From positions 1-64,000 of the forward strand of contig DXDM01000048.1 of NCBI GenBank assembly GCA_019115485.1: a DNA stretch of 64,000 bases, written 5' to 3'. The DNA is from Candidatus Barnesiella excrementavium. GTDB lineage: Bacteria > Bacteroidota > Bacteroidia > Bacteroidales > Barnesiellaceae. The translations under genes were made by a program, and so were the position numbers. The notes below the pieces were generated by a model. The model ran no database searches. It saw only the letters and a list, made by a program, of their open reading frames with translations, and was not told the origin of the DNA. This document shows positions 38,060 to 63,533 of this stretch, one piece after another (positions within the stretch are counted from its first letter, which is position 1; each line of letters opens with the position of its first letter).

Positions 38060-38066
38060 CTTCGAG

Positions 38067-41192: not shown

Positions 41193-41210
41193 TTCCCATT
41201 AATTTGGGCG

Positions 41211-41218: not shown

Positions 41219-41294
41219 CAAATTGTTTCGTCAGGAAATTCGTTTCACCCCACATATTTTTCGTCGAAATCCGCAGACTTTGAGAGAATCCGTT

Positions 41295-41302
41295 TATCTT
41301 TG
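41295..41302 (+). promoter_or_regulatory. Candidate -7 box (TATCTTTG) for the secreted esterase
   Basis: TATCTTTG is an exact TAnnTTTG match, about 80 bases before the ATG at 41384. No TTG is found at the standard spacing. Confidence 0.45.
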
Positions 41303-41383
41303 TCGAAAGCGAATCCCGGCAAGGGAAACACAGCGGTATACCCCGACGGGAGCATATTCATCACACTTAAAAAAACAACTGCC

Positions 41384-42377: not shown

Positions 42378-44552
42378 TTAACGCCCTATTTTCTTCTCGT
42401 ATTTTTTCAACAGTTCCCGTGAAGTATCGAGCAACGTACCGTTGCGCTCGATTACCACGGGCTCCGTGCTCTCTATCCATGCCTGTTCAAAGGCAGAGAG
42501 TTTTTGATTCAACGCCTGGCTGTCGAGTTCGGCACCCTGCTCGGCCGCAGTGATTACCGCATCGAAATAGATTTCCCAGCGACCGGCATAGTACGATTTC
42601 ACCAATCCGGCCCATGTACGGCTGGCATAGTCGTTCAGATTGCCGCCCCAGGTGGTAATGAGGTTGCGGGCATTCTTCTCGTAATAATCTTTCAAGGCAT
42701 CGGTCGTACCCATATTGCGGGCCTCATCGATCCACGTATCGAGCGAGGCATGGCTGTGGAATGCGTTCAGGGCCTCCAAATCGGCCAGAATCTCGCGCAT
42801 CTCGGCAGCCTTGGCCTGCAAGGCCGGGACATTCCGCTCGCCGTACAAGCGGTCAAACTCCTGCTTTACCGTCAGAAAATAGTTACCCAAGAGCTGCCGC
42901 CCCACCATCACGAGGTCAATATTGTAGGCATCTCGCTGGCAGGCAGGCACATCGAGCAAGAGTTTCCAGACCTGCAACAAGGTAGCATTGTCATATTCGT
43001 TACCGGTACGCTTGTCGTGGTTGTTGCCCAGTTGCGGACGGAACCCCGGCAAAATGCCCAACGTGCGGGGTACCTGTACGAAAATATCGTCGTACAAGAG
43101 GTGCCAGGCTTTACGTGCCGGATCCGAGACAGCCCCCACGTGACGGTCGGCCAACCGGTCAATCCACTCCTGCTCGTCCCCCGCTATGTTCCAAGCCTTC
43201 TCAAAGGTATACTCATAGGGGAACTGGTCGATGTCCAGCCCTTCCAACGTAGAGCCTATTCCCACCAGATTGTCACCCCCGCTCTTCAAAGCCTCGTCGA
43301 GACGACGGCCACTCTCCCCCACATTACCGGTAAGAGTCGTGTTCCCGCCAAAATTGCCCAGATAGCACCAGATATAGGGCTGCCCGTGAAACTTGTCGGT
43401 ACTCTTCCACAACTCCACGTTCTCGCAATGGTAGTCGAGCAGCATCATCTTGTCTTGCGGTACCCCGGTCAGCAACGCCTTGATGCGCGGAGCCGTCCAC
43501 AAATCGCGGTCGTGATAGAACATCCAGGTCATTTGCAACCATACGGCCTCGGGGTCGGCAGCGGTCAGCGTCTTGTACATGTCGGCCGATACCTGTGCCA
43601 GATACTCCGGGTCCCAACTGGGCGGATCCACCTCATTAAAAGGGTCCACGCCATAGATGTGGTCGGTCCCGAACAGCTTTTCCTGCTCTTGCAGGAAACT
43701 TTTCTGAATCTCGGCAAACAACGGCTCCTCGGGATTCAGGAAGTGGCAACGGTAGGTATCGGAAAATCCAGCCCACTTGCCCAGATACTGGATATTGGCC
43801 TCGGGATAGATGCGCTTCAACGCAGTCGGCACATGACCGGCAAAGGCCGGCAACACGGGAGTCATGTTCAACTCGCGCTCCCGGGCCAGAATCTTCTGCT
43901 GCAACTCGGTCTGCGACTCCAACCACTCCATGGGCAGAGGTCCGTTCCACCCGTCGATATTGGCCATGCGATGCCAAGGCAGATAGGTAGGGCCCGTAAA
44001 ATAGGAGCGTATCTCCTCATCGGTCAACCCCATCTTGCTCCACACCTTGTACCATACCGACTCCTGCCCGGTGATGGCCAAGGGCATGTTCACACCGTTC
44101 AAGGCCATCCAGTCGATCATGCGCTCCCAGTCGCGCCATTGCCAGAAAGGCATGGAATAGCCGTAGGTGCAATAGTTCAGGAAGAAACGGGTATTGACCT
44201 TGGCCTCTACGGTGACCGGCTTGTCGACAGCAGGCAGAACCTGCGGCATCTCGACCGGAATATCGGCATACCACGACACAGTCGTGAGGCAATAGTATTT
44301 CAAGTAGTAGTTAAGTCCGGCTGCCATCGAGTTGGCATTATTTCCGCGGACAACGATTTTCCCGTCCCGACTTTCGAGCGTATAATAATCCCCGGCCTTG
44401 GCCGAAGCCTTCTCAAACACGAATCCATCGGCATAATCGGGAATCAAGCGACGGGTAAGCCGTTCGGCCGCCTTCACATCGCTATCTTGCGAAAAGCAGA
44501 AGGCCGTTCCCAAAAACCAAAAGGACAACGCAATAATAAACAGTTTCTTCAT
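42378..44552 (-). CDS. GH89 alpha-N-acetylglucosaminidase, copy 1
   Basis: The 724-residue exported enzyme starts at the ATG at 44552, which gives a signal peptide (ending A-F-C-F-S-Q). The NAGLU layout is an N-terminal small domain, the (beta/alpha)8 catalytic domain (about 100-450) and a helical C-terminal domain. Candidate catalytic Glu residues are near 303 (F-N-E-V-D-P-P) and near 433 (S-T-L-E-G), matching the two Glu of human NAGLU. It would release terminal alpha-linked GlcNAc, as found on gastric mucin or heparan-type chains. It is the last gene of a five-gene operon that also holds a second GH89. Confidence 0.93.
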   Translation of the reverse strand: MKKLFIIALSFWFLGTAFCFSQDSDVKAAERLTRRLIPDYADGFVFEKASAKAGDYYTLESRDGKIVVRGNNANSMAAGLNYYLKYYCLTTVSWYADIPVEMPQVLPAVDKPVTVEAKVNTRFFLNYCTYGYSMPFWQWRDWERMIDWMALNGVNMPLAITGQESVWYKVWSKMGLTDEEIRSYFTGPTYLPWHRMANIDGWNGPLPMEWLESQTELQQKILARERELNMTPVLPAFAGHVPTALKRIYPEANIQYLGKWAGFSDTYRCHFLNPEEPLFAEIQKSFLQEQEKLFGTDHIYGVDPFNEVDPPSWDPEYLAQVSADMYKTLTAADPEAVWLQMTWMFYHDRDLWTAPRIKALLTGVPQDKMMLLDYHCENVELWKSTDKFHGQPYIWCYLGNFGGNTTLTGNVGESGRRLDEALKSGGDNLVGIGSTLEGLDIDQFPYEYTFEKAWNIAGDEQEWIDRLADRHVGAVSDPARKAWHLLYDDIFVQVPRTLGILPGFRPQLGNNHDKRTGNEYDNATLLQVWKLLLDVPACQRDAYNIDLVMVGRQLLGNYFLTVKQEFDRLYGERNVPALQAKAAEMREILADLEALNAFHSHASLDTWIDEARNMGTTDALKDYYEKNARNLITTWGGNLNDYASRTWAGLVKSYYAGRWEIYFDAVITAAEQGAELDSQALNQKLSAFEQAWIESTEPVVIERNGTLLDTSRELLKKYEKKIGR

Positions 44553-44562
44553 CTTCTTATTC

Positions 44563-45657
44563 TTACAATTTGATATAGATATGCTTTTTATACAAGAACC
44601 AGGCGACAAGCCAGTTGAGCAGGAGGAATACCAGCGCATAGGCCAGACTCCCGCCGTAATTCCCGAAGAGGGGTTGCCACAGGCTGTCGAACGAGAGCGT
44701 GGTCCAATGCCACTTGCGGAACGTCTCCCCGACGATTTCGCTGAATATGTAGATGGACAAGGGATTCACCCCCACCACGACAAAGGGAAGCGTCCACCGG
44801 CTCTTTTTCAGCTCATCGATAAAATAGACGAGCGTGGCCAAGATGAGCGAGGTAGCCCCGCAAGTCACCAACACGAAGCTCGACGTCCACAACCGCTTGT
44901 TCAACGGCGCGCCATAGCTCCACAGATACCCGAGTATGAGCATCACCGTGCCCCAAACGGCCAATTTCACAATCTGCGTGCGAATCTCCTTTTCCTTGAC
45001 GATAATGCGGCCGCACAGGAAACCAATCATCACCTGAGCCACCGCGGGGATTGTGCTCAACACCCCTTCGGGGTCGACAAACTGAGCGCCGCCCAAATAC
45101 ATGTGCGACGGGCCCAGCACAGCAAAATCGACAATCGACACCACATTCTCGGCACACTTTTCAAAGCCGTTGCCAAAGAGTTGAAGCAAATAGTACCCCA
45201 CCAGCAACACGGCGATTATCGCCGGGAAGAACCGATGCCGCACCGTGACCGACAGAAGCGCAACAACGCCGTAGCAGATACCCAACCGCTGCAAGACGCC
45301 CATGATGCGCAGATTCTCGAGCGTATTGCATTCACCCGTCGCAATCCAGGCCAAGACCCATTTGAGGGCTATGCCCGACAGGATTATCAGGAAAGTGCGC
45401 CGCAGAATGCGTCCGATCGAGACCCGCCAGTCAAACCCGCTCTTATTGAGCGACAGATAAATCGATACCCCCATGATGAACAGGAAGGCAGGAAAAACGA
45501 GGTCGGCAGGCGTAAAACCGTCCCACCGGGCATGTTTCAACGGGGCGTAGGCATACCCGCAAGCCCCAGCATTGTTGACGAGAATCATGCCATAAATGGT
45601 AATCCCCCGCAACACATCGAGCGAAACCAGTCTTTTCGTAGTTTTTTTCAACGACAT
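44563..45657 (-). CDS. HGSNAT-like membrane acetyltransferase (DUF5009/DUF1624 type)
   Basis: The 364-residue polytopic membrane protein has about ten helices. I chose the ATG at 45657, which overlaps the upstream stop by 10 bases and starts R-L-V-S-L-D-V-L-R-G. Residues 41-56 carry the K-H-x-x-W-x-G-x-T-x-A-D-L-V-F-P motif, including His42, corresponding to the active-site histidine region of human heparan-alpha-glucosaminide N-acetyltransferase. The human enzyme passes acetyl from cytosolic acetyl-CoA across the membrane to terminal glucosamine. It sits directly upstream of a GH89 gene, the enzyme acting next in the lysosomal pathway. Substrate in this organism is inferred. Confidence 0.85.
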   Translation of the reverse strand: MSLKKTTKRLVSLDVLRGITIYGMILVNNAGACGYAYAPLKHARWDGFTPADLVFPAFLFIMGVSIYLSLNKSGFDWRVSIGRILRRTFLIILSGIALKWVLAWIATGECNTLENLRIMGVLQRLGICYGVVALLSVTVRHRFFPAIIAVLLVGYYLLQLFGNGFEKCAENVVSIVDFAVLGPSHMYLGGAQFVDPEGVLSTIPAVAQVMIGFLCGRIIVKEKEIRTQIVKLAVWGTVMLILGYLWSYGAPLNKRLWTSSFVLVTCGATSLILATLVYFIDELKKSRWTLPFVVVGVNPLSIYIFSEIVGETFRKWHWTTLSFDSLWQPLFGNYGGSLAYALVFLLLNWLVAWFLYKKHIYIKL

Positions 45658-46901
45658 ATCCAATACATTAACGTGGAACACAAGGTTAATACAGCCCCGA
45701 TGAGGCTTTCATAAGGAATCAGTTTCAACCGCTCCTTGAAGGAGAGCTCGCACACCCCACCCGTGGCGTGGAAGAAAGAGCCGTGGGGCAGATGGTCGAG
45801 CACGGTAGAGCCGGCATTGACCATGGCCGCACCCCATACCGACGAAACGCCTACCGCCAGAATCATGTCGGCAAAAGAGGCCGACGCCAGCGTGGCTCCC
45901 GCCGTCGTGGAGGCCGTAGCGGCCGACATCAAGATACCCGAAACGGGAGCTATCAACTCTTTCCCGACACTGATGTGGTCGAGCAGCACCAATATGTGGT
46001 CTTTGAGGGTAGAATCCTGAATGACTCCGGCAATCGTCCCCGTACCGATGAGCAGCACGGCGATTACCGACATCTTCTGCAACCCGAATTCGATACTGGG
46101 CAGGGCGTTTTTCCATTGCTTCATGCAGAGGAGTCCGCATAGACCGCCCACCGGTAAAGCAATCAACGGGTCGACAGTAATCCCGCACAACGGTCGCAAG
46201 GCCAGCAGGAGAATGGTCACAACGGGGGCGACCAAACTGCTCCACAACGGGGGTAACGTCCGGTCATCGGCCACGGTCTCGCAGTCGGAATGGACCCGAC
46301 GTTCGGGTACCGGGAAGAAGCGGGCTATGACAAAGACGGTAAAGAGCAACCCGATGAGGGCCGGGACGACATTGGCAAACATGACCGATGACAAATCGGC
46401 CCCGAAATTCTCGGCCGCGATAATCGTGTTGGGGTTGGGCGAGATGATATTGCCGCACTTTCCGCCCCCAATCATCACCAGCAGCAACTGCGGCGTAGGG
46501 ACTCCCAGCCGGCGACCTATCGAGAGGGCTACCGGGGCTACCGTAATGACCGCCACATCGATAAACACCCCTACCGCACACAAGAGCATCGTGGCGAAGG
46601 CCAGAGCCAGATAGACGCGCTTCTCGCCCCAGAACCGAATGATGGCATTCGAGATGGTCATGGCGGCACCGGTCTTGATCAACACCCCCGACAGCACACC
46701 GGCTGTCAAGATGCGCAACACGGCCGAAGAGACTCCTTTCACCCCCTCAGTCATCGAGGCTACCACCTCTTCCAACGAGAGGCCTCCGGCCAAGCCGCCG
46801 ATCAAAGCGCCCAGAATGAGGCTATATGCAGGCGATACCTTTTTGATAATCAATCCTATCGCCACCAACAGACCCAACAATGCACCTATCGTACTATCCA
46901 T
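45648..46901 (-). CDS. GntP-family organic acid permease
   Basis: The 417-residue inner-membrane protein of the gluconate:H+ symporter (GntP) family has about twelve helices. Motifs include the G-G-G-K-C-G-N-I-I-S-P-N-P-N-T segment (about 145-160) and a repeated A-S-T-T-A-G-A-T region in the C-half. Family substrates include gluconate, fructuronate, idonate, serine and glycerate. It overlaps the glycerate kinase gene by 8 bases, so D-glycerate is a reasonable guess for its cargo. Confidence 0.88.
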   Translation of the reverse strand: MDSTIGALLGLLVAIGLIIKKVSPAYSLILGALIGGLAGGLSLEEVVASMTEGVKGVSSAVLRILTAGVLSGVLIKTGAAMTISNAIIRFWGEKRVYLALAFATMLLCAVGVFIDVAVITVAPVALSIGRRLGVPTPQLLLVMIGGGKCGNIISPNPNTIIAAENFGADLSSVMFANVVPALIGLLFTVFVIARFFPVPERRVHSDCETVADDRTLPPLWSSLVAPVVTILLLALRPLCGITVDPLIALPVGGLCGLLCMKQWKNALPSIEFGLQKMSVIAVLLIGTGTIAGVIQDSTLKDHILVLLDHISVGKELIAPVSGILMSAATASTTAGATLASASFADMILAVGVSSVWGAAMVNAGSTVLDHLPHGSFFHATGGVCELSFKERLKLIPYESLIGAVLTLCSTLMYWICR

Positions 46902-48039
46902 GGTTCACGATTTGAAGGGTCCGCATTATCTGTGAAACGACCTGCCGGATATTCTGCAAGGCAAACGCACGGTCCATCGCCTGCTGCAACGAGACCGGCG
47001 CCTGCTGTATGGAAAAGACACCGGCAAAGCCCATCTGATTCAACACCTCGCAATCCTCTACGCAACCGCCCAGAGCGATGACCGGGACCTGCTCGCGCTG
47101 TGCATGGCGCAGAACACCGCCCAGAGCTTTCCCCATACCCGTCTGCCGGTCCAGTTTACCTTCGCCGGTCAGAATCAAGTCGGCACCCCGTATAATCTCG
47201 TCGAAGCGGAGCATCTCCAACACAATGTCGATGCCCGAGTGCAACTCGGCCCGAAGGAAAGGCAGTATGCCTCCGCCCAATCCACCGGCAGCCCCGGCTC
47301 CCGGAATGGTCGAAATATCGATGTGCTTCAACGACTCTATCACGCGGGCATAATGGACCATGCCCTTCTCCAACAAGTCCACCTCGTTGGGCGAAGCTCC
47401 CTTTTGGGGGGCATAAATCGCAGCCGCACCGCAAGGCCCGTAGAAGGGATTGTTCACATCGCAGGCAATCGTAAAGGTAGTCTCGCGCAAGGCTTCGTTG
47501 GCCCCACGTTCGTCGATGCGGGCTATGCGTTCCAAGTTCTTTCCCGCCGGGAAGAGCTCCTCGCCCTGGTCGTCGAGAAACCGATAGCCCAGTGCGGCCA
47601 ACAGTCCCGTACCCGCATCGTTGGTGGCGCTGCCGCCAATCCCCATGACGATGCGACGGCACCCGCGGCTCAACGCATCGGCAATCATCTCGCCGGTACC
47701 CCAGGTGGTCGTGAGCAGGGGATTTCGCCTTTCGGGCGGTACCAGCGGCAACCCACTGGCCGCCGCCATCTCCATCACGGCGGTCGTACCGTCGGCCGTG
47801 ATGCCATAGGTAGCCTCTATCGGGCACATGAGCGGGTCGTGAACCCAGCACGACACCCGCTCGACGGGCAGGCTGGCACAAATCGCCTCGGCCGTACCTT
47901 CACCGCCATCGGCCACCGGTACCGTCACCACCTCGCACCCGGCCAGGCAATCGATAATTCCTTGTCGGGCAGCGGTGGCTATCTCTTGCGAACTTGCGCA
48001 ACCCTTGAATGAATCAAATGCTAAAATTATCCTTTTCAT
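46894..48039 (-). CDS. Glycerate kinase (GlxK/GarK type)
   Basis: The 381-residue protein starts at the ATG at 48039 (M-K-R-I-I-L-A-F-D-S-F-K-G). The glycerate kinase type 1 fold is recognisable from the N-terminal D-S-F-K-G, the P-V-A-D-G-G-E-G-T segment (about 47-55), G-I-G-G-S-A-T-N-D-A-G-T-G (about 128-140) and L-T-G-E-G-K-L-D near 290. It phosphorylates D-glycerate, usually to 2-phosphoglycerate, feeding glycolysis. It lies between the two GH89 genes with an overlapping GntP permease, suggesting that glycerate is imported or released by this pathway. Confidence 0.92.
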   Translation of the reverse strand: MKRIILAFDSFKGCASSQEIATAARQGIIDCLAGCEVVTVPVADGGEGTAEAICASLPVERVSCWVHDPLMCPIEATYGITADGTTAVMEMAAASGLPLVPPERRNPLLTTTWGTGEMIADALSRGCRRIVMGIGGSATNDAGTGLLAALGYRFLDDQGEELFPAGKNLERIARIDERGANEALRETTFTIACDVNNPFYGPCGAAAIYAPQKGASPNEVDLLEKGMVHYARVIESLKHIDISTIPGAGAAGGLGGGILPFLRAELHSGIDIVLEMLRFDEIIRGADLILTGEGKLDRQTGMGKALGGVLRHAQREQVPVIALGGCVEDCEVLNQMGFAGVFSIQQAPVSLQQAMDRAFALQNIRQVVSQIMRTLQIVNHG

Positions 48040-48076
48040 GGTCTCTTTCTTCTTTCCTCCAAATGTAGCGAAAATA

Positions 48077-50245
48077 TTACTCCTCTTTACACCGGACCAC
48101 CCATTCGATGGCGCTCTGCAACGGGTCGTCAAAAGCGGTAGAGGTATTGTGCCACGGAGTCTTTATCCAGTTCTCCTCCCAGCGATCCAGGTCGGCCCGC
48201 TGTTCCGAGAAATACAATTTCATGCGGGGAATATAGTAATCCTTTATCAGTCCGCTCCAAAAACGGGCGGCATAATCTTCCTGAAATCCGCCCCAGGTGG
48301 TAATGAGCCGCTTGGCGTTGGCCTCATAGGCGTCTTTCTCCCGGTCGGTCTCACCCCATTCGCGAGCCCGGTCGACCCACTCGTCCAGTCGGTACAGCGG
48401 GTGCGAGGCCAGCAGTTTGTCGACAGCCAAAAGAATCTCGACCGAGCGGTTCAACTGCTGCGTAGCCTCCACCTGGTTTCCCAACGAGTCGGCATGCAAC
48501 GCCTGCCGGTAATGGTTGTCGGCCTTGACGGCCAGATAGTAGGAGGCATATTCGAGGGCATCGTTTACATAGAGCGGCGATGATTTCAAGCTGTCGGCAC
48601 ACGACAGGAACTGCTCCACCCCTTGCAGGAAGGTCTCGTTCATATCGTGCCTGCTCACCCGACGGGTATCGGGTACAACCGTCTGCCAGGTAAACCGGGG
48701 ATAGGAGTAGAGCGAACTGTAAACCGACGCTCTGAACCGATGCCAGGCACTGTCCATGGCGGCCGGACAACTCCCGTAACGAGCCCGGCAATAATCGGGC
48801 AACCAGGTATCCAGATTGATCGAATCGGCAGTCCAGCCCATATCGGCGAGCAGTTCATAGACCACCTCGTTGTTTTCAAGACCCTCGGGAGCCGACCCGA
48901 ATCCAATCAGGTTCCCGGCTTTCCCGCTGTGCAGGGCTTCGGCCGACGAGGTAGCATACATCTGCAAATCGCCGGTCATCGGGGTCTTTCCCCCGAAGTT
49001 GGGTACATAGCTGAAAATCCACTTCTTCCCGTAAAAGCCGTCGTGATTCTTCCACGTCTGCTCGGTACCCCAAACCCACTTGGGATAATCGTTCCCCAGG
49101 TCGACGATAATCATCTTGTCGTCGGGGACCCGGCTCAGCAGAGCCTGCAAGCTGGGACGGTCCCAAAAGTCGTGCTGATACCCGAAGGTCCAGCCCTGTG
49201 TCACCCACACGGCATCGGGGTTACCGGCCGCAATCGAGCGATATATCGATTCGCCGTACTGGGCCAACAGCCGGTGCTTCCCGGCTTCGTCACCCTCGGC
49301 GACAGGCAATCTCATCTCGTTGAAACTATCCGACAGATAGTAGGTGTTCTTGCCGAACTCCTTTTCCCACTCCTCGACAAACATCTTTCCTATCTCGTTG
49401 AAATAAGGCGTATCGGGAGGCAATACATAGGCATTGTATTTTTCATCAAATCCACCCCACTCCAAGTGCTTGAAGCCAATCTCGGGGTGTTTCTCGGCAA
49501 AAGCCATCGGGACAAACCCGGCAAACGCGGGAGCCACGGGCTCCATGCCCAACTCGCGCATGCGTTTCAATATCTTGTGTTGCAGTTTTATCTGGGCCTC
49601 CTGCCACCCCTCCGACAGCGGTCCGTCCCAGCTGTTGAGGTTACCCATGCGATGCCAGGGCAGATGGGCCGGTCCGGTGAAAAAGGCTCGTATCTCCTCT
49701 TCCTTCAACCCCATCTTCAACCACACGCGCTCGGCTATCGCCTCGCTGGCCACGGTAGCCAACGGCATGTTCACGCCCCGCAGCGCCATCCAGTCGATTT
49801 CCTTCTCCCAGCGGTCCCAATCCCAATAGGGTGCGGTGTATCCAAACGTACACACGTTCAGGAAATAACGAAACTGATAGGGGGTGGTCTGTCGCTTCAA
49901 GGCATAGTCGGGCCATACGGCCGGCAAGGTCATGTGCTCCCCACTCCACGTCTTCATCGACTGGCAAGCCTCACGCAGGTAGGTGTGGAAGGCATAACAG
50001 AGGGCAACCGTGCTGCTGCCTCTCAGGGTGAGGACTCCTTGCCGAGCCTCGATCTCAAAAGTCTCTTTTCCGTTTTCGGGGGCGATAACCTCCAACTTTA
50101 TCTCTGAGGCCCGCTCACCGATTTGTCGCTCGAGCAGCTCAAAAGCGGGCTGTATCACCGCATTCGATTGGCCCGACGAGCTACACCCGCACAGGCATAA
50201 AATCAGGGAAAGAAGGTAAAAACAAGGAGATGTGAAGCTTTTCAT
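48077..50245 (-). CDS. GH89 alpha-N-acetylglucosaminidase, copy 2
   Basis: The 722-residue exported enzyme begins M-K-S-F-T-S-P-C-F-Y; a lipoprotein-like signal ends at C-L-C-G-C (Cys near 18-21), so it may be lipid-anchored. The catalytic Glu candidates are near 309 (D-S-F-N-E-M) and near 451. The second lies in G-S-A-P-E-G-L-E-N-N-E-V-V-Y, close to the corresponding segment of human NAGLU as I recall it and closer than in copy 1. It is the first gene of the operon with glycerate kinase, GntP permease, HGSNAT-like protein and GH89 copy 1; divergence of the two GH89 suggests different linkages. Confidence 0.93.
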   Translation of the reverse strand: MKSFTSPCFYLLSLILCLCGCSSSGQSNAVIQPAFELLERQIGERASEIKLEVIAPENGKETFEIEARQGVLTLRGSSTVALCYAFHTYLREACQSMKTWSGEHMTLPAVWPDYALKRQTTPYQFRYFLNVCTFGYTAPYWDWDRWEKEIDWMALRGVNMPLATVASEAIAERVWLKMGLKEEEIRAFFTGPAHLPWHRMGNLNSWDGPLSEGWQEAQIKLQHKILKRMRELGMEPVAPAFAGFVPMAFAEKHPEIGFKHLEWGGFDEKYNAYVLPPDTPYFNEIGKMFVEEWEKEFGKNTYYLSDSFNEMRLPVAEGDEAGKHRLLAQYGESIYRSIAAGNPDAVWVTQGWTFGYQHDFWDRPSLQALLSRVPDDKMIIVDLGNDYPKWVWGTEQTWKNHDGFYGKKWIFSYVPNFGGKTPMTGDLQMYATSSAEALHSGKAGNLIGFGSAPEGLENNEVVYELLADMGWTADSINLDTWLPDYCRARYGSCPAAMDSAWHRFRASVYSSLYSYPRFTWQTVVPDTRRVSRHDMNETFLQGVEQFLSCADSLKSSPLYVNDALEYASYYLAVKADNHYRQALHADSLGNQVEATQQLNRSVEILLAVDKLLASHPLYRLDEWVDRAREWGETDREKDAYEANAKRLITTWGGFQEDYAARFWSGLIKDYYIPRMKLYFSEQRADLDRWEENWIKTPWHNTSTAFDDPLQSAIEWVVRCKEE

Positions 50246-50387: not shown

Positions 50388-51971
50388 TTATCTAACAATC
50401 AGTTTTTGGGTCAAGTGATCTACGACAATCAGGTAGATGCCTTGGGCTACGGGCAATTCGAGGGCTGCACCGTCGGCGATAACCCCTTCGTAAACCAGAC
50501 TACCGGTCAGGTTGTAAACCCGGGCTTCGGCCTCACCGTCCAAACCGGCGGCATAGACTACCCGACCGTCGTTCCAGATGCGGAGTTCATTGCCAACCAC
50601 GGCACTCTCGATACCGCTTACCTCGGCGTCATATTCAACGGCACCTACTGCGGGAGCCTCGGGACGCGGATTGCCCAGCTGGTCGGTCGTGGGGATTTCA
50701 ACCCCTTCGTAACTCTTCAAACCTTTGCCGATAACGACACTGTTCTCGGCAATCATGGCTACGTGCAAGTCGCCCATCAAGGTGGCTGTCATGTGCGAAT
50801 ATTCGGGATCGTTCTCGTCCCACGGATTCTGTTCGGTAGCAGCAAAAACGGCATCGTTCGAAAAATCGATCAGTGCATTGTCGTCGGCTGCATCGAGAAC
50901 CTGATAGAATTTATCGTTGGCAGCGGCAAAATAGTTGTTTTTGCAAACCGGGAATACCGTTTGAGGTTGTGCCTTATCGTTGGCCTTGTCGCCTTCGAGG
51001 TAGAAAGCCTTCACGTCGTTCAACGGGTTTGTATCCCAGGGATCGTAGTAGTTCTCGGCAAAGAGGTTGTTGATGAATACGGGTTTCATCGGTTCGGCCG
51101 TAGCATTAGCCCATACGTTGATGGCACCGCCGTCGTCGCTGTTGGTGATGTTGTTAAGGTTACCTACGAAAGTACAGTTGACAATGGCCGGTTCAAATGC
51201 GCCCGAAGGTTCGGCCGTCTGCATGTAAATAGCACCACCCCGGTTGCCGCACGTATTGTTGGCAAAGGTAGAGTTGGCAATATACACGCTGGGAACCACA
51301 CCCTTTGTGAGGACGTTCACACCAACGGCACCACCCGATACGGCTTCGTTGTACTCGAACGTACAGTTGGTAATGCGCAACGCAGGTACAACCGTCGACT
51401 CGGCGGTATAGAAGCAGAGGGCGCCGCCTCCGTAAGTACCCATACCCTTGTTGTTGTAGAACCAGCATTGGTCGAAGGTGGCGTTACAGTTGTTGATACG
51501 GGCTACACCACCGTTGTTTCCCTTCTCGTTCTTGGGGTCGCGATTATCGCGGAAGACGCATTTCGTAGCCGAGAAGGAGCAGTCGCCCGACATCTTGATG
51601 GCAATGGCGCTGAACCCTTTGACCACGAGATTTTCCATCGATACAATCGAGCCTCCCGACAGGTTCAGGAAGTAGTTGGAACTACCCACGATAGTCACGG
51701 GTTTGCCGTTTTTCTTGTTGAGACCGTCGATTTTGACATTCTTCTTGTTCAAATCGATTCCCTTGCAATCTTCCGTATTGTATTCCAGCGTTTCGCCATC
51801 GAAATTAAACTCGACCGTCGTTTCCGTTTCGCCGGAAATGGCCGACATAACTTGCAGCAGAGAACCCTCTGTGGCTGCATTCATTTCGGCAGTAGTTACC
51901 TGTACGGTCTCTGCCAACAGTGTGCCTGAGCAAAGTGCCAATAGGCACAACAATGATGTACTCTTTTTCAT
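50388..51971 (-). CDS. Secreted right-handed beta-helix protein with C-terminal sorting-like domain
   Basis: The 527-residue protein has a signal peptide (about 1-20). The middle region (about 60-420) shows repeated short strands with N-G-G-V-A-R-I-N-N-C, G-G-G-A-L-C-F and R-G-G-A-I-Y-M turns, typical of parallel beta-helix (pectate lyase/choice-of-anchor) proteins. Its last 75 residues look like a type A C-terminal sorting domain (R-V-Y-N-L-T-G-S-L-V-Y-E-G and G-I-Y-L-I-V-V). No catalytic residues of a known lyase family can be assigned. It is the last gene of the SusCD operon, probably a surface glycan-binding or -cleaving protein. Confidence 0.8.
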   Translation of the reverse strand: MKKSTSLLCLLALCSGTLLAETVQVTTAEMNAATEGSLLQVMSAISGETETTVEFNFDGETLEYNTEDCKGIDLNKKNVKIDGLNKKNGKPVTIVGSSNYFLNLSGGSIVSMENLVVKGFSAIAIKMSGDCSFSATKCVFRDNRDPKNEKGNNGGVARINNCNATFDQCWFYNNKGMGTYGGGALCFYTAESTVVPALRITNCTFEYNEAVSGGAVGVNVLTKGVVPSVYIANSTFANNTCGNRGGAIYMQTAEPSGAFEPAIVNCTFVGNLNNITNSDDGGAINVWANATAEPMKPVFINNLFAENYYDPWDTNPLNDVKAFYLEGDKANDKAQPQTVFPVCKNNYFAAANDKFYQVLDAADDNALIDFSNDAVFAATEQNPWDENDPEYSHMTATLMGDLHVAMIAENSVVIGKGLKSYEGVEIPTTDQLGNPRPEAPAVGAVEYDAEVSGIESAVVGNELRIWNDGRVVYAAGLDGEAEARVYNLTGSLVYEGVIADGAALELPVAQGIYLIVVDHLTQKLIVR

Positions 51972-51983: not shown

Positions 51984-53009
51984 TTAATGGTTAAGAATGT
52001 ATTTGAAAGTGCTATTTTGATAGCCGTTTTTCACTTGTACGAGATAGAGCCCGTTGCGGCACGAGGCCGGGAAACAGACCTCGTCGCCGTTGTCGACCCG
52101 TTGCGAGCCGACCAGCGTGCCGTCCAACGCGTAGAGATCGACTGTCGACTCGGCTTGAAGAGAGGTCAGTGAGAATCCTCCGGAGGTTCTTATCAGCTGC
52201 ATCTCGCGGGTTGCGGTCGCATGGTCTACCCCACTCCCCTCCACCGGATCGATTACCACATAGACCGGCAGGTGGTCCGACACGTCGGAGAGGGTAAGCC
52301 CGTCGACCGAGGTGACTACCCCCGTCTCGGCCACCTCATACTCCTGTCCCGTTTCGCTGCAATAGGAGATAATCATGTCGATGCACGACGTAGGTCCGTC
52401 GGCCGGGAAGGTATAGGCCGAGGTGTTGTTCAGTATCGAGAAGCCGTTGTTCTTGAAGGTGACCATGGCCCGATAGGTGGGCTGGGCATTGAAATCGCCG
52501 GCGATGAAGACTGTCTTGTCGCTCTTCCGGGCAAAATTGATAGCCCAGGCCGTCGCGGTATCCCGGTCGTCGGCATTGAGCGAATAGTGGGTACTGATGA
52601 AATAGAAATCCTCAAACTCGGCAATAAGGAACCCGCGGGCCTCCTTGTCTTTCGAGGTATCCGACGGGTCGAACGACTGGGTCTGCACCGACAGGGGTTC
52701 GGTCTTCGACAGCAGCCCTACCCCATAGTAGGAACCGACCAGCGCAAAGAACGACGAGTGCATGCCGGTAGCCTCGGCCAGTTCGCTCAGATAGTCGTGC
52801 TTGGTGCCTATGAAAGTGCGATTATCCACCTCCTGCAAAGCCACGATATCGGGCGTTTGGGCATTGATGACGGCAGCGATATCTTCCAACCGCGAAGAGG
52901 TCATACCGTGTCCCTTGATGTTGTAGGTGAGCAACTTCACCGGTTCGGCCGCAACCAGGCTTCCTACCACGGCCACCCACAAAACGATTATGGTAAATAC
53001 TCTTTTCAT
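51984..53009 (-). CDS. Secreted EEP-family phosphodiesterase/phosphatase 1 with sorting-like tail
   Basis: The 341-residue protein starts at the ATG at 53009 (signal peptide to A-A-E). The endonuclease/exonuclease/phosphatase fold has all active-site motifs: L-T-Y-N-I-K-G (metal Asn), L-Q-E-V-D (metal Glu), S-T-H-Y-S (His), G-D-F-N-A (Asp, Asn) and S-D-H-L-P (terminal Asp-His). The family includes DNase I, sphingomyelinases and inositol phosphatases. The last 65 residues resemble a C-terminal sorting domain (L-Y-A-L-D-G-T-L-V-G and N-G-L-Y-L-V-Q-V). It is one of three EEP genes in this operon. Confidence 0.88.
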   Translation of the reverse strand: MKRVFTIIVLWVAVVGSLVAAEPVKLLTYNIKGHGMTSSRLEDIAAVINAQTPDIVALQEVDNRTFIGTKHDYLSELAEATGMHSSFFALVGSYYGVGLLSKTEPLSVQTQSFDPSDTSKDKEARGFLIAEFEDFYFISTHYSLNADDRDTATAWAINFARKSDKTVFIAGDFNAQPTYRAMVTFKNNGFSILNNTSAYTFPADGPTSCIDMIISYCSETGQEYEVAETGVVTSVDGLTLSDVSDHLPVYVVIDPVEGSGVDHATATREMQLIRTSGGFSLTSLQAESTVDLYALDGTLVGSQRVDNGDEVCFPASCRNGLYLVQVKNGYQNSTFKYILNH

Positions 53010-53043
53010 GAATCTTATCTTTTGGTTATTCTTGTCATTCGGT

Positions 53044-55053
53044 TTATTCGGCCGCCTGTACCTCGGGCGGAACCTCGCCCACACGCCCGAAGGGGAACAT
53101 GGAAATCCTCAACGTGGTGCGGCCATACGGTTCGAGCCGGAGCAGCTGCGGAGTAGCGTTGTTCAAGGCAAATATCATGATGCCTCTGGCCGGCAGACCC
53201 GGTGTGACAGGGGCAAAAATCTCGCTTCCCGACGAGTGGGCTATCTTGCGGTATTCAAGTTGCCAACCAGCCAACTCGTAACCCGGAAAGACCACGGTAA
53301 GCGGCGACGGCGACAGGGTCCAGGGATTCTCGTCCACACCGATGTTCCGCTCGATGAGCTTATATCCTTGGTCCTGCTCGTCGGCAACGCCCAGGGCAAA
53401 GTTCCATTTCGAGACCGGAGTCATCGTGTAGCCCTTGTAGCTGAACGATTGTATGGCGGGGGTGAGCACATCGGTCTGTACCGTATGGCTCTCGACCGGA
53501 AGCGCCATCAACAGCGGTCCGCACGTGACCACCATGGCTTCATGGTCCCACCGCTGCAACCGCACCTGCTTGGGGAAGAGCAACTCGATACGGTCGCCCG
53601 TCTTCCAGAGTCGGTGAATATCGAAATATCCGTCATGCGCGGCACGCGTAATCTTTTGGTTGTTGACATACACCTCGGCCCGATCGCACCAGCCGGGGAT
53701 TCGCAAGTGGAGCGACAGCTCGGCCTCTCCCTCGACCACCGAGAGGAGAACCTTGTCACCAAACGGATAGGCCGACTCTTCACGCACGGTTATCGACCCC
53801 TCGCGCGAGGTCAGCGTGGCTTCGCCCGGACCATAGAGCATCTTGTAATACTCGCCCTCGCCGTGCATCCACTGCGCCCCGGCGTAGATGGGCAACAGGC
53901 GGTTCAGATTGCCCGTGCAGCACGACGGCCGATGCACCTGCCGATAGGCAAAACGGCTGTTGTCATAGGCTCCCGTGTGGTTGGAATACTCGGTACACAC
54001 CACTTGATTGGGAGCCGAGTAGTATTGATGGGCATCGAAATTCTTGGTGATACCGCCCAGACCGGCGTTGAACAGGGCACACTCGATACGGTCGGCAAAC
54101 TGCGTGTCGCCGGTGGCCCGCAACATGTAGGAGCAGGTCCACATGTAATCGACCACGTTGCACATCTCGTGTACGCTCCGGGCCGTCCGCCCCGAGAGCC
54201 CCTCTTCCCCGCTGGCCACCCCGTCGGGGAGCATGTGATAGCGGTCGAGCTTGGCAAAGGCCGCCCGGGCCAAATCGAGGTATCTGCGGTCGCCGGTGAG
54301 GTCGTAGAAGAGAACCGGCAGTTTGAGGAACTCGTGGAAGGTCACGGCGTGAATCTCGGTGCGCTCATCGGCGGCAAACCGTTCCATCGCCTGCCTCAAC
54401 GTATACTCGCCGAAGCAAGGCTCGTCGAGCATCGAGAGCGCCTTTGTCTTGAAGAAGGCATCGCCGGTCTCCCGATAGAGCCAGTCGAGCACCTCGATGT
54501 TGCAGAGGCTGCGGGCCGTATATCGCACCGTATCGTTGCGGAAGTGGCGGTCGAGCGCCTCGACGACCGCCCGGTTGCGTGTCACCTCATACTCGGCCAT
54601 CATCGCTCTGAAAAAGACCGCCTGTACCCAGCGGCTCATCTCCTTCGACACGATGCGAGGCCCCAGCAACCCGTCGTCGCCAGCCCGGTCGATGGTACCG
54701 TAAACGGCCCGGCGGGCCTTGTCGAGCAAGGGGGCCGAGTCGAGCAGATAGCCCAGACGTATCATGCCGTCGTAATAATAGGCCGTCTGTTCATAAGGGA
54801 CCCAGAACTCCTCGGTGACTCCGTTTTTCACCCGCAGGAAGGGCTGTGCCCCCCACCCCCCTTGTGTAAAGGGGAAGGCGGTCTTGTCGAGAATCCCGGT
54901 AACGTTCCGCTCCTGAGCCTGCATCAGGTCGGCCAGCCAACCTTGCGGAGTGAGGCGATCGAGAGGTTCGGTCGACAGCATTCGGCCAGCTTCCGCCGAC
55001 AGGGGCAGCAGGGAGATGATGAAACACCATATGGCTAATCGGGTTGTTCTCAT
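53044..55053 (-). CDS. GH127-type glycoside hydrolase (beta-L-arabinofuranosidase-like, DUF1680)
   Basis: The 669-residue secreted protein has a signal peptide (about 1-24) when started at the ATG at 55053. The (alpha/alpha)6 barrel has the GH127 zinc/nucleophile pattern: H-E-M-C (E-x-C ligand pair) in the N-terminal half and R-P-S-C-C-T-G-N near 385-392, where the adjacent cysteines match the ligand and nucleophile of characterised beta-L-arabinofuranosidases. The C-terminal part is beta-rich. GH127 acts on beta-L-arabinofuranose and related sugars. It is the only clear glycosidase in this operon. Confidence 0.88.
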   Translation of the reverse strand: MRTTRLAIWCFIISLLPLSAEAGRMLSTEPLDRLTPQGWLADLMQAQERNVTGILDKTAFPFTQGGWGAQPFLRVKNGVTEEFWVPYEQTAYYYDGMIRLGYLLDSAPLLDKARRAVYGTIDRAGDDGLLGPRIVSKEMSRWVQAVFFRAMMAEYEVTRNRAVVEALDRHFRNDTVRYTARSLCNIEVLDWLYRETGDAFFKTKALSMLDEPCFGEYTLRQAMERFAADERTEIHAVTFHEFLKLPVLFYDLTGDRRYLDLARAAFAKLDRYHMLPDGVASGEEGLSGRTARSVHEMCNVVDYMWTCSYMLRATGDTQFADRIECALFNAGLGGITKNFDAHQYYSAPNQVVCTEYSNHTGAYDNSRFAYRQVHRPSCCTGNLNRLLPIYAGAQWMHGEGEYYKMLYGPGEATLTSREGSITVREESAYPFGDKVLLSVVEGEAELSLHLRIPGWCDRAEVYVNNQKITRAAHDGYFDIHRLWKTGDRIELLFPKQVRLQRWDHEAMVVTCGPLLMALPVESHTVQTDVLTPAIQSFSYKGYTMTPVSKWNFALGVADEQDQGYKLIERNIGVDENPWTLSPSPLTVVFPGYELAGWQLEYRKIAHSSGSEIFAPVTPGLPARGIMIFALNNATPQLLRLEPYGRTTLRISMFPFGRVGEVPPEVQAAE

Positions 55054-55087
55054 ATACGCTTTTCCAACGGATAACAAGGAGTTGTTT

Positions 55088-55867
55088 TTATTTCACGAAA
55101 ATCAAGTCGGAGACGATGGGCAGGTGGTCGGACAGCTGCGAATGCACGGTTTGTGTCTTGACAAGCGTCCACCCCTTCATGGGCCGGGCAAAGAGATAGT
55201 CGATTTTGATAATGGGATTCCAGGCCGGGAAGGTAAAGTCGTTGTTCGTAGCCGGGAACCAGCTCTTCGACATGATATTGACAATGGCGTTGGAGTAGTG
55301 ACGGGCATTGAAATCACCGCCGATAATCACCGGATAGGGGGCATTTTCAAAGCGGTCGCAGATGAATTGGGCCTGCATGTTGCGCAGGCTCTCGCTGTTC
55401 ACCTCCAAATGGGTAGTCACGAAGGTAAGGGTATCGTCGCCCATCTCAATCAGAGCTTCGAGCAAGGCCCGTTGTTCCTTTTTCTCGGGATTGGGCAGCA
55501 GCACCTTTTCGGTCTTGATGTAGGGATATTTCGACAGCATGCCTATACCGTAGTATCCGCCACCATACTCGATGGTCTTGCCATAGAGACCGAACATACC
55601 GGTGCGGTAGGCCAGTTCGCCGATGAAATCTTTTCCTTTCTGATGCGGAGCCCGCTTGCGGTCGGTGTGGACATCGACCTCTTCCAGAGCCACGAAATCG
55701 GGCTTGAACGATTTGATGTGATAGGCGAGATCTTCGAGCGACGACAGTTCGCCGAAGCGCAGATTATAGGTCATTACTCTCACCCGCAGGGTGTCTTGCT
55801 GAGCCGAAACAACCCCGCAAGAGAGGGCTATGAAAAGCAGAATTACTAATTTACGAAATGTGTTCAT
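55088..55867 (-). CDS. Secreted EEP-family phosphodiesterase/phosphatase 2
   Basis: The 259-residue protein has an N-terminal signal peptide (about 1-23, V-V-S-A-Q-Q). The EEP motifs are complete: M-T-Y-N-L-R, L-E-E-V-D, T-T-H-L-E-V-N, G-G-D-F-N-A-R, S-D-H-L-P-I. It has no extra C-terminal domain. It lies 34 bases upstream of the GH127 gene and 13 bases downstream of EEP 3. Substrate cannot be read off, but export together with SusC/SusD points to an extracellular phosphodiester or phosphomonoester. Confidence 0.88.
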   Translation of the reverse strand: MNTFRKLVILLFIALSCGVVSAQQDTLRVRVMTYNLRFGELSSLEDLAYHIKSFKPDFVALEEVDVHTDRKRAPHQKGKDFIGELAYRTGMFGLYGKTIEYGGGYYGIGMLSKYPYIKTEKVLLPNPEKKEQRALLEALIEMGDDTLTFVTTHLEVNSESLRNMQAQFICDRFENAPYPVIIGGDFNARHYSNAIVNIMSKSWFPATNNDFTFPAWNPIIKIDYLFARPMKGWTLVKTQTVHSQLSDHLPIVSDLIFVK

Positions 55868-55880: not shown

Positions 55881-56735
55881 TTAGGGTTTTATTTCCAAAA
55901 CCGAGATAATGGGCAGGTGATCCGAAGCATTCACACCGGTAATGACCGTGTGAGAAACGACCCGAAACCTGTCGTTGGGATAATAGGTGATATAGTCCAA
56001 CTCCCGATTGGGATTGTTCGACGGAATGGTAAATTTCGTCGGGTCGGTGTTCGTGCGGGTAAACCCGGCAGCATCGAGAATGGCAATCGTCGAGTTGGAA
56101 GGTGTAGCGTTGAAGTCACCGCCCAGGACAACGGGCCGCTTGATCGGCTCGAAGATATTTTCGAGAGCATAAGTGATTTGCAAGTCGCGTTCGCTCTGTA
56201 CCGTAGAGAGGTGAGTCACGGCAAATGTAATGTCGGTACCGCCGATGTTGATGATGGCCGTGCCCACGGCGTTGTCGCTGGTCATGACCTGCCCCTCGAT
56301 TTCATCGGGAAAAAGGTAGGTCTTGGTCTCCTTAAAAGGTTTCTTCGAGAGCATGGCCAGGCCATATTCGCCGCTGCGATAATCCATAATCCGGAAGAAA
56401 TGGTAATAGGGATACTTGGCCCGTGCGGCTATCTCCTTGGCCTGGTCTACCCCCAGGCTGCGGGTCGTGCAGCTGTCGATCTCTTGAAGCAGAACGACGT
56501 CGGGCATCTTCGACTTGATGACATTGGCTATGCCGTCGACATCGGGAACGGTCTCTTCGCCGCTCACCCCATAATAAGGAGCGCAATGCCGGGTGTTATA
56601 CGACATCACCGTCACCCGCTCGTTACCCACCGTTACACCGGTCCCCCCGGGAACAGCGGGTTCGCCGCTGTTCTCCTTGGAGCAACTCGGTAACAGGAGT
56701 AGTAAATAAAACAATATGAATAAACTACGATACAT
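55881..56735 (-). CDS. EEP-family lipoprotein phosphodiesterase/phosphatase 3
   Basis: The 284-residue protein, started at the ATG at 56735, has a lipoprotein signal (L-P-S-C, Cys18) followed by acidic and Ser-rich residues, and so may be a surface lipoprotein. All EEP active-site motifs are present (M-S-Y-N-T-R, L-Q-E-I-D, V-T-H-L-S, G-G-D-F-N-A-T, S-D-H-L-P-I). It is the first enzyme gene after SusD (26 bases). Its sequence differs clearly from the two other EEP proteins, so this is not recent tandem duplication. Confidence 0.88.
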   Translation of the reverse strand: MYRSLFILFYLLLLLPSCSKENSGEPAVPGGTGVTVGNERVTVMSYNTRHCAPYYGVSGEETVPDVDGIANVIKSKMPDVVLLQEIDSCTTRSLGVDQAKEIAARAKYPYYHFFRIMDYRSGEYGLAMLSKKPFKETKTYLFPDEIEGQVMTSDNAVGTAIINIGGTDITFAVTHLSTVQSERDLQITYALENIFEPIKRPVVLGGDFNATPSNSTIAILDAAGFTRTNTDPTKFTIPSNNPNRELDYITYYPNDRFRVVSHTVITGVNASDHLPIISVLEIKP

Positions 56736-56761
56736 TATGTGAGTGTGTGAATAGTCGGTTA

Positions 56762-62981: not shown

Positions 62982-63533
62982 TCACAATAACAATGAGATA
63001 GCACATTGACGAATGAGTTCTTTGATCTGTTTCAGCGACTGGCTGTATTGGAACTTGACGGTATTGACCGATAAGTGCAACTTGTCGGCAATCTCCTGAT
63101 TGGAATACTGACCCGAAATTTTCAACGAGAAGATTTTCCGACGCTGGGGCGACAGTTGGTCGATAGCCCGACGAATCATGTCCAGCTGCTCCCGGTCGAT
63201 TTCGTCATCGACCTGATCATCGTCGATTCGCTCCAACAACTCCAAGCAATCGTCCAGCACAAAGATGTTGTTTCTGGAATCGCGCAAGATATTCAAGATG
63301 TCGTTTTTCAATACCGTAAACAGAAAGTGATTCAACGGCCGCCGCTCGTCGAGATCCTCGCGCTTCGTCCAAATCTTCATAAAAAGATTCTGCACGGCAT
63401 CTTCGGCCAACTCTTTATTACACAAATATTTGAATGCAAGCCGATAGGCCTGATCCGAATAAGTGTTATAAAGAATGGTAAAAGCCAATTGGTTGCCCTG
63501 TTTTAACTGTATCGTTAAAGCGACCTCGTCCAT
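62982..63533 (-). CDS. ECF RNA polymerase sigma-70 factor
   Basis: The 183-residue protein has sigma region 2 (about 15-85: A-Y-R-L-A-F-K-Y-L-C-N-K-E-L-A-E-D-A-V-Q-N) and region 4 with helix-turn-helix (about 125-175: S-N-Q-E-I-A-D-K-L-H-L-S-V-N-T-V-K-F). No region 1 or 3, as in ECF sigmas. It controls the downstream SusCD operon under FecR. The upstream region (63534-63652) shows no clear -7 box of its own. Confidence 0.95.
   Translation of the reverse strand: MDEVALTIQLKQGNQLAFTILYNTYSDQAYRLAFKYLCNKELAEDAVQNLFMKIWTKREDLDERRPLNHFLFTVLKNDILNILRDSRNNIFVLDDCLELLERIDDDQVDDEIDREQLDMIRRAIDQLSPQRRKIFSLKISGQYSNQEIADKLHLSVNTVKFQYSQSLKQIKELIRQCAISLLL

Follow-up and report, generated by a model that had tools for sequence, protein, structure and literature searches.

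A Barnesiella polysaccharide utilization locus with two GH89 enzymes and glycerate genes, possibly for a glycerate-containing bacterial surface polymer

We analyzed a window of 64,000 nucleotides from Candidatus Barnesiella excrementavium (contig DXDM01000048.1, positions 1 to 64,000), in which a 14-gene polysaccharide utilization locus (PUL) occupies positions 42378-63533. The domain scan placed a SusC/SusD pair next to glycan enzymes. An earlier note on this DNA had described five genes at 42378-50245, and all five were found there on the minus strand, with their families supported by Pfam. These genes form the end of the PUL; the extent given for the cluster was too short and missed SusC/SusD, sigma/FecR, and three EEP enzymes, up to 63533. 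The genes of the PUL are, in order:

62982..63533, minus strand, ECF sigma factor (Sigma70_r2/r4; found in 7/9 Barnesiella genomes)
61954..62895, minus strand, FecR anti-sigma factor (FecR, FecR_C)
58503..61916, minus strand, SusC-like TonB-dependent outer membrane transporter (Plug, CarbopepD_reg_2, STN)
56762..58489, minus strand, SusD-like glycan-binding protein (SusD_RagB)
55881..56831, minus strand, EEP3, predicted phosphodiesterase/phosphatase (PF03372, 84.7 bits)
55088..55867, minus strand, EEP2, predicted phosphodiesterase/phosphatase, probably exported (PF03372, 73 bits)
53044..55077, minus strand, GH127-like protein, dispensable (PF20736, PF07944)
51984..53084, minus strand, EEP1, predicted phosphodiesterase/phosphatase (PF03372, 72.6 bits)
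50388..51971, minus strand, beta-helix protein (Beta_helix, 22.5 bits, under the cut-off of 25.9)
48077..50245, minus strand, GH89b, probable lipoprotein and predicted alpha-N-acetylglucosaminidase (PF05089, 428 bits; lipobox LCGC)
46894..48132, minus strand, glycerate kinase (PF02595, 466 bits; TIGR00045, 463 bits)
45648..46901, minus strand, GntP-family permease, proposed glycerate importer (PF02447, 95 bits)
44563..45681, minus strand, HGSNAT/NagX-like membrane protein (PF07786, 38.5 bits, cut-off 22)
42378..44639, minus strand, GH89a, probably exported, predicted alpha-N-acetylglucosaminidase (PF05089, 475 bits)

The gene run was conserved in 7 of 9 Barnesiella genomes, counting the window's own and dropping matches that spanned 40 residues or fewer, and the arrangement of the five genes is therefore not due to chance. 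Conservation of the neighborhood in relatives, on which the earlier note had staked its reading, thus held. The GH127-like gene was variable: none was found in genomes G002 and G005, and only fragments were found in G006. The open reading frame of the glycerate kinase opens at TTG, and a downstream ATG is the likelier start; the protein matches both the PF02595 and the TIGR00045 family models and fits a 2- or 3-kinase. An Rfam search returned two tRNA genes only.

Both GH89 enzymes have all three NAGLU Pfam domains (N, barrel, and C) above cut-off, and cross-matches in the genus comparison put them at ∼35% identity to each other. Alignment to human NAGLU (PDB 4xwh) showed that two glutamates in the FNE and PEG/LEG motifs are conserved in both (Glu336 and Glu466 in GH89a; Glu310 and Glu454 in GH89b), and those of GH89b also align to 2vc9. 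We take these glutamates to be the catalytic pair of the NAGLU family.

The HGSNAT-like protein matched the human protein in PDB 8vkj (E 5e-29), and its segment KHARWDGFTPADLVFP aligns with human KHASWNGLTVADLVFP in that structure, in agreement with the HGSNAT-type motif previously read from the sequence. The NagX model NF046061 covered residues 16-371 of 372 with 182 bits; because this lies below the equivalog cut-off of 480, we did not file the protein as NagX itself. Its His50 was invariant (14/14 rows), and Asn36 was kept in 12 of the 13 rows that cover its position (the exception being L114), so the protein has the acetyl-transfer His and nearby Asn looked for in HGSNAT and NagX. We propose that it N-acetylates terminal alpha-GlcN in the periplasm. 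For this part of the scheme, a sugar transporter or an O-acyltransferase, rather than an N-acetyltransferase, is an unlikely reading: the subthreshold NagX score is in its favor, as is the distant relationship of NagX to TfMurT, a putative MurNAc transporter (PMC9007349). NagX, from the same paper, is a precedent for periplasmic GlcN acetylation. The conserved His and Asn argue against the transporter or O-acyltransferase reading, as does the intermixing of DUF5009 proteins with the HGSNAT clade (PMC12423673). Of the 21 PF07786 matches across the genus, 14 fall outside the PUL.

EEP1, EEP2, and EEP3 all scored above the PF03372 cut-off. EEP1 has a weak T9SS sorting tail (TIGR04183, 21 bits versus a cut-off of 23), and the N terminus of EEP3 resembles a lipoprotein signal by eye, with no flag from the motif script. 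In EEP2, residues N35, E63, H153, D185, N187, D247, and H248, which we take to be metal-binding or catalytic, were invariant in 18/18 aligned rows. Its AlphaFold model has a pLDDT of 93; a structure search of the PDB returned only the general EEP fold, the nearest folds including nucleases, nocturnin, and neutral sphingomyelinase, and a sequence search of the PDB gave no match at E 0.01. With the PGAP2IP nuclease-like model, EEP2 scored above the cut-off of 27 (32.3 bits) and EEP3 below it (23.9). We propose that the EEP enzymes cleave a sugar-6-P-6-sugar diester.

For comparison across relatives, we gathered 80 relatives of GH89b, consisting of 50 loci of the GH89b clade, drawn by identity, and 30 others. 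The clade was recovered with an SH-aLRT of 100 in a tree that left out L110 and trimmed L084 and L085 to their last 760 residues. Neighbors were found with the window proteins (E 1e-5, up to 10 kb on each side). With loci cut by contig ends kept in the denominators, glycerate kinase was found near 35/50 clade loci and 0/30 others (a count that misses the MOFRL kinase of L087, just as GntP is missed in both L087 and L113), EEP near 42/50 and 1/30, and a GH89a-type partner near 43/50 and 1/30 (3/30 if any second GH89 counts, in a survey that dropped matches spanning 60 residues or fewer). On the tree, the glycerate-kinase label changed 9 times, compared with 27.0 in shuffles. Some clade-locus GntP genes have diverged so far that a search with the window GntP misses them. 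In L087, a MOFRL/DUF4147 kinase adjoins GntP in place of the PF02595 kinase; we take it to belong to a glycerate kinase class unrelated to PF02595. No glycerate kinase of either class was found near 14 of the 50 clade loci; four of these loci run into a contig edge, and three of the remaining 10 genomes (L089, L115, and L120) have neither kinase family anywhere. Gene orders differ between clade loci, and the link between GH89b and glycerate survives this rearrangement. By tying glycerate kinase to the GH89b clade, these results strongly support an earlier guess that the substrate is an alpha-GlcNAc glycan containing glycerate. The prediction that GH89b releases glycerate is well supported by genomics.

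The HGSNAT-like gene lies near only 11 of the 50 clade loci, and none was found in the locus of B. pyogenes, which is similar in other respects. The HGSNAT-like protein is an accessory part, whereas glycerate kinase, EEP, and the GH89a-type partner are the constant parts. In an even sample of the order (295 genomes), an HGSNAT-like gene was found within 10 kb of GH89 in at least 4 of the 32 genomes that have GH89 and belong to other genera, with 0.28 expected under random placement; glycerate kinase was that close in only 1 of the 32 (B. pyogenes; 0.13 expected). The NAGLU/HGSNAT theme of the earlier note thus holds as a pairing above chance and is not supported as the core of the locus, and its logic of acetylating and then cutting is plausible in a peripheral role. 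Its first analogy, in which HGSNAT and NAGLU would attack a glycosaminoglycan as in heparan breakdown, is barely credible despite the family names and their pairing: we set it aside because the PUL proteins scanned for domains included no polysaccharide lyase, GH88, or sulfatase, and the HGSNAT-like gene is absent near 39 of the 50 clade loci. To our knowledge, heparan contains neither glycerate nor a phosphodiester.

Another substrate, a GPI anchor or plant glycosyl inositol phosphoceramide, would have HGSNAT acetylating alpha-GlcN on inositol or glucuronate, GH89 cutting, and EEP acting as a phospholipase. The PGAP2IP scores and the sphingomyelinase in the EEP2 fold search fit it, as do other GH89 loci, which pair HGSNAT with GH92 and GH28. 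We nevertheless set it aside as very improbable, because no inositol, mannosidase, or glucuronidase domain was found among the scanned PUL proteins; it also leaves unexplained the glycerate permease and kinase, which are among the constant parts. If the substrate were a small solute such as alpha-GlcNAc-glycerate, with the EEPs doing something else, no genes beyond glycerate kinase, GntP, and GH89b would be needed. This too is improbable, and the plain solute was set aside, because most clade loci also have SusC/SusD, sigma/FecR, EEPs, and a GH89a-type partner with GH89b; moreover, an EEP2 counterpart is naturally fused to GH89b in two Bacteroides pyogenes strains. Individual loci have further genes that favor the polymer reading given below: an alkaline phosphatase in that of B. 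nordii and, in L103, a NagB-like protein together with ROK kinases. An alpha-GlcNAc-decorated polyglycerol phosphate was also set aside on structural grounds, since it would yield glycerol phosphate and give no account of the glycerate kinase.

Papers on Clostridioides (C.) difficile describe the repeat of its PS-III lipoteichoic acid (LTA) as [->6)-alpha-GlcNAc-(1->3)-[->P-6]-alpha-GlcNAc-(1->2)-D-GroA] (PMC5270738, PMC6972965), with a 6-P-6 bridge, glyceric acid on residue M, and ∼15% of the outer residue L present as GlcN (PMC10642750). Two alpha-GlcNAc cuts, a phosphodiester, and glycerate match this repeat, and we therefore propose that the locus serves to eat such a polymer; the un-acetylated form of the outer GlcNAc would be what an HGSNAT-like enzyme repairs. 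We give an even chance to the reading that this PUL targets a bacterial surface polymer with phosphodiester links and glycerate, most likely the C. difficile PS-III-type LTA of gut clostridia. The analysis establishes gene content, conservation, co-inheritance, conserved active-site residues, and folds, and from these we infer the identity of the polymer, each reaction, the order of the steps, and which GH89 cuts which bond. SusC/SusD and the outer EEP enzymes would capture the polymer and break its 6-P-6 phosphodiesters, and the repeat unit would pass into the periplasm and then lose its phosphate. Where the outer residue is glucosamine (∼15%), the HGSNAT-like protein would move acetyl onto it from cytoplasmic acetyl-CoA. 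GH89a would take off the outer alpha-(1-3) GlcNAc, and GH89b would split the remaining alpha-GlcNAc-(1-2)-glycerate. D-glycerate would be taken in by GntP and converted by glycerate kinase to phosphoglycerate for glycolysis.

Several observations stand against a PUL for clostridial LTA. The EEP enzymes are diverse, with the nearest folds named above; the scheme leaves GH127 and the beta-helix protein without a role, and no gene for the beta-glucosyl-glycerol anchor was identified in the locus. The clade loci without a nearby glycerate kinase, the minority with HGSNAT, and the single genome of 32 with a kinase near GH89 point the same way. The module is carried by gut Bacteroidota (human, bird, and ruminant, as labeled in their records) and also by Rufibacter, Pontibacter, Gramella, and Pedobacter, which we take not to be gut genera; the polymer must therefore occur beyond gut clostridia. 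This distribution favors the same logic applied, in place of clostridial LTA, to some other glycan that bears phosphate, alpha-GlcNAc, and glycerate, whether O-antigen, capsule, or wall polymer; some E. coli O-antigens carry an alditol (ribitol, glycerol, or glyceric acid, for example) through a phosphodiester (PMC9912281). Such a substrate is possible but doubtful, as PS-III LTA was the sole polymer met in a narrow open-access literature search that combines two alpha-GlcNAc, a 6-P-6 phosphodiester, glycerate, and partial GlcN. In its widest form, the LTA proposal is of a widespread Bacteroidota system that eats glycerate-containing LTA of clostridia-type Gram-positives. GH89 would have a new specificity in it, and some gut species would add a trans-membrane re-acetylation that undoes the de-N-acetylation of the prey polymer; we hold this tentatively, at slightly under even chances.

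Like other Bacteroidota PULs, the locus sets its enzymes in a single co-oriented run with SusC, SusD, sigma, and FecR, but its proposed substrate, a glycerate-phosphate bacterial polymer, differs; no published locus for such a polymer was found among the literature matches listed. The catalytic domain and His are shared with NagX (PF07786; PMC9007349), whereas here the gene adjoins GH89 and glycerate genes and the proposed acceptor is a glycoside rather than free glucosamine. Both families of the human lysosomal NAGLU/HGSNAT pair are present with their active-site residues conserved; heparan is the substrate of the human pair, whereas the present locus has phosphoesterases and genes for glycerate catabolism and can do without the acetyltransferase. 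With C. difficile PS-III LTA as the proposed substrate, the fit extends to two alpha-GlcNAc linkages, the phosphodiester, D-glycerate, and partial GlcN; the true target may instead be a related polymer from other bacteria. If the proposal is true, gut commensals have a dedicated pathway for eating clostridial surface polymer, that of C. difficile included, and the walls of some gut bacteria serve others as food. The C. difficile LTA has been studied as a vaccine antigen, and synthetic repeat units have been made (PMC6972965); the PUL would put enzymes for analyzing this type of polymer on offer.

Hydrolysis of alpha-GlcNAc-glycerate would, if true, be a new GH89 specificity, and would explain why glycerate kinase and EEP genes recur in these loci. 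The structure model of GH89b has a mean pLDDT of 82.3, with values below 50 at the N terminus and at 131-139, 192-204, 353-356, 530-532, and 652-658. In an alignment that left out L110 (two GH89s in one open frame) and L084 and L085 (EEP fusions), residues such as H198, K323, T349, Y515, D526, and R528 were each present in 34/34 glycerate-linked rows. Such residues were also mostly shared (86-100%) by the 14 clade rows that lack a linked glycerate kinase, and they therefore mark the clade and not the kinase. Among them, R528 and K323 are only candidates for residues that hold the glycerate carboxylate.

The earlier note described a five-gene NAGLU (GH89), HGSNAT-like, and glycerate cluster at 42378-50245, and ORFs and Pfam domains placed all five genes there, on the minus strand. 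A domain scan of the window showed that these genes form the distal end of a longer same-strand run reaching an ECF sigma factor gene at 63533. This run (42378-63533) is composed like a polysaccharide utilization locus (PUL) of Bacteroidota, with its own sigma/anti-sigma pair. Its genes, including three EEP-family phosphoesterases (EEP1 to EEP3) and two GH89 proteins (GH89a and GH89b), are as follows:

62982-63533, minus, ECF sigma
61954-62895, minus, FecR
58503-61916, minus, SusC
56762-58489, minus, SusD
55881-56831, minus, EEP3
55088-55867, minus, EEP2
53044-55077, minus, GH127-like protein
51984-53084, minus, EEP1
50388-51971, minus, beta-helix protein
48077-50245, minus, GH89b
46894-48132, minus, glycerate kinase
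45648-46901, minus, GntP permease
44563-45681, minus, HGSNAT-like protein
42378-44639, minus, GH89a

Both GH89 proteins are predicted to be extracytoplasmic, probably, because a simple scan (not a signal-peptide program) found a lipobox in GH89b and a hydrophobic N-terminal stretch in GH89a. Elsewhere in the window, two tRNA-Asn genes lie in tandem (37889-38060).

Among nine genomes of the window's family, all from the genus Barnesiella, the PUL run occurred in the same order in seven, the window's included, but not in G003 or G007. Each of the seven has EEP1 to EEP3, GH89a, GH89b, glycerate kinase, GntP, and HGSNAT. GH127 was not found in two of these (G002 and G005) and was present only as pieces in a third (G006), and thus it is not needed. 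Other GH89 loci of the genus (L053, L054, and L055) belong to a second PUL, in which GH89 occurs with two EEPs and no glycerate kinase was found; the combination of GH89 and EEP therefore recurs for another substrate. L055 additionally contains a BD-FAE-type esterase match, a GDSL lipase-like protein, GH3, and GH20.

We searched a GH89b alignment against a set of 84,980 species genomes, confirmed 145 loci, kept the best 80, and surveyed homologues of the window proteins up to 10 kb from each. Fifty of the 80 loci (L078-L126 and L138) form a GH89b clade, drawn at ≥54% identity. A tree recovers this clade (50 rows: 49 loci plus the window, with L110 left out) with an SH-aLRT of 100, which needs some caution because the tree is a quick one with a very long branch elsewhere. 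Glycerate kinase of the PF02595 type was nearby in 35/50 clade loci versus 0/30 other loci, GntP in 33/50 versus 0/30, EEP in 42/50 versus 1/30, and a GH89a-type partner in 43/50 versus 1/30 (3/30 if any second GH89 is counted: L133, L139, and L152). EEP homologues are tied to the clade no less closely than glycerate kinase is. HGSNAT does not track it, being found near 11/50 loci inside and 5/30 outside. On the tree, the label for glycerate kinase (carried by 36 of 82 rows, counting in the window and the MOFRL kinase of L087) required 9 changes versus an average of 27.0 in shuffles, a clustering made easier by near-copies among the rows; after dropping four rows cut by contig ends, it required 6. 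In L110, GH89b and GH89a appear to share one open frame. A BD-FAE/AxeA1-type esterase (window 41204-42241, plus strand, facing the PUL) adjoins the PUL in seven Barnesiella genomes, was not found in the remaining clade loci, and may be a mere neighbor.

A shared neighborhood could reflect merely inherited gene order, but the varied order across the clade and the replacement of both glycerate parts in L087 argue that the link between GH89b and the glycerate genes is functional. Barnesiella and several Bacteroides have the order GH89b-GlyK-GntP-HGSNAT-GH89a (GlyK, glycerate kinase), and many Rikenellaceae and unplaced Bacteroidales have GH89b-GH89a-GlyK-GntP. In Rufibacter, the GlyK and GntP genes lie upstream (in L106, on the opposite strand), and in Pontibacter (L116) they lie downstream and on the opposite strand. 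In L087 (Paludibacteraceae), the GntP was missed by the window GntP search yet scored 307 bits to PF02447, and a MOFRL/DUF4147 protein, which we take to be of the other, unrelated glycerate kinase class, replaces the PF02595 type. A distant GntP likewise adjoins the glycerate kinase of L113. Against this link, no glycerate kinase of either class was found within 10 kb in 14/50 clade loci, four of which (L094, L102, L104, and L126) run into a contig edge. For the other ten, the genome has PF02595 elsewhere in three and MOFRL elsewhere in four, which is weak evidence because PF02595 is already present in 77/295 genomes of the order; neither was found genome-wide for L089, L115, and L120. Within that 295-genome sample, glycerate kinase lay within 10 kb of GH89 in only 1/32 GH89 genomes outside the genus (Bacteroides pyogenes; 0.13 expected); in a selection of the sampled loci, most GH89s match GH89a better than GH89b. 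In a B. nordii draft (L082:12275-13416), glycerate kinase, and perhaps GntP, is split across two frames through assembly error or decay.

In two B. pyogenes strains, EEP2 and GH89b form a single open frame of 952 residues (L084:9233-12091, and the same place in L085; the two are near-copies, and Pfam confirmed both domains in L084, the one scanned), which argues for both acting on one substrate. This locus comprises sigma, FecR, SusC, SusD, EEP3, the fusion, glycerate kinase, GntP, and GH89a; HGSNAT was not found nearby; the genome has an HGSNAT-like match on a different contig. The predicted EEP2 model (pLDDT 93) has an EEP fold, and its best PDB matches are functionally uncharacterized bacterial EEP proteins, nocturnin, TDP2, and neutral sphingomyelinase. 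Seven residues, presumably the metal and catalytic positions of the family, are invariant in 18/18 aligned EEP2s. Side genes elsewhere, namely alkaline phosphatase in B. nordii (L082) and ROK sugar kinases, a NagB-like/PIG-L protein, and calcineurin-type and type I phosphodiesterase domains in L103, would fit the same products (GlcNAc, phosphate, and glycerate). According to excerpts of PMC6499787, phosphodiesterases (PF00149 and PF01663) occur in loci without known carbohydrate enzymes, and GH89 is often duplicated in single-family PULs.

Across the catalytic region, the HGSNAT-like protein has matches to both PF07786 and the human structure. The acetyl-carrying His is conserved in 14/14 aligned relatives and the neighboring Asn in 12/13 rows with letters at that column (the exception is L114). 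Because the protein scored 182 bits with the NagX model, whose cut-off is 480, we do not call it NagX, for which fitness data led to a proposed role in acetylating glucosamine in the periplasm (PMC9007349, in part); DUF5009 proteins have been grouped with the HGSNAT clade, their function lacking experimental proof (PMC12423673, in part). The earlier note's acetylate-then-cut logic is reasonable, since GH89 and HGSNAT lie within 10 kb in at least 4/32 GH89 genomes outside the genus versus 0.28 expected under random placement, but it does not define the locus, given the HGSNAT counts in the clade and the 14/21 PF07786 matches in the genus that lie outside the PUL. Two of the four genomes outside the genus (L063 and L064) have GH92, GH28, and SusC/SusD alongside, with no glycerate kinase found at either locus; this PUL type is a candidate for another kind of alpha-GlcN glycan. 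One Rikenellaceae locus has a divergent HGSNAT-like gene (L114:14332-15444) that shares 30% identity with the gene in the window and gave no Pfam match at 0.001; it sits between GH89a and glycerate kinase and seems to have been recruited separately.

The constant gene set points to a polymer yielding GlcNAc (from two alpha linkages), phosphate, and glycerate. Those GH89b-clade loci that have glycerate kinase are likely to release glycerate from an alpha-GlcNAc glycoside that belongs to a phosphate-bearing glycan. The Clostridioides difficile lipoteichoic acid (LTA) PS-III has the repeat [->6)-alpha-D-GlcpNAc-(1->3)-[->P-6]-alpha-D-GlcpNAc-(1->2)-D-GroA] (excerpts of PMC5270738; same in PMC6972965). 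A later NMR study agrees in the sections available, with two alpha-(1-3)-linked GlcNAc residues, L and M, a 6-P-6 bridge, glyceric acid attached to M, and ∼15% of L as glucosamine (PMC10642750). Phosphodiester cleavage would leave L outermost, and an exo-acting GH89 would have to take it off first; by known NAGLU/HGSNAT logic, an un-acetylated amine on L would block GH89. This scheme accounts for neither GH127 nor the beta-helix protein nor the LTA anchor. Our narrow search of open-access papers met no second polymer with the full set. A search of the open-access literature found no paper on GH89 with DUF5009 or with glycerate kinase in a PUL, on HGSNAT with NAGLU in a Bacteroid operon, or on a Bacteroides PUL for lipoteichoic acid and glycerate; teichoic acid degradation was absent among the matches listed of a wider open-access search. 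PS-III antibodies cross-react with other clostridia (PMC5270738, in part), which makes commensal clostridia plausible prey. Genomics and published chemistry together leave the full proposal, that the locus uses a PS-III-type LTA, evenly balanced. Some genera that carry the module are from soil or the sea, so either the polymer must extend beyond gut clostridia or the loci use related polymers.
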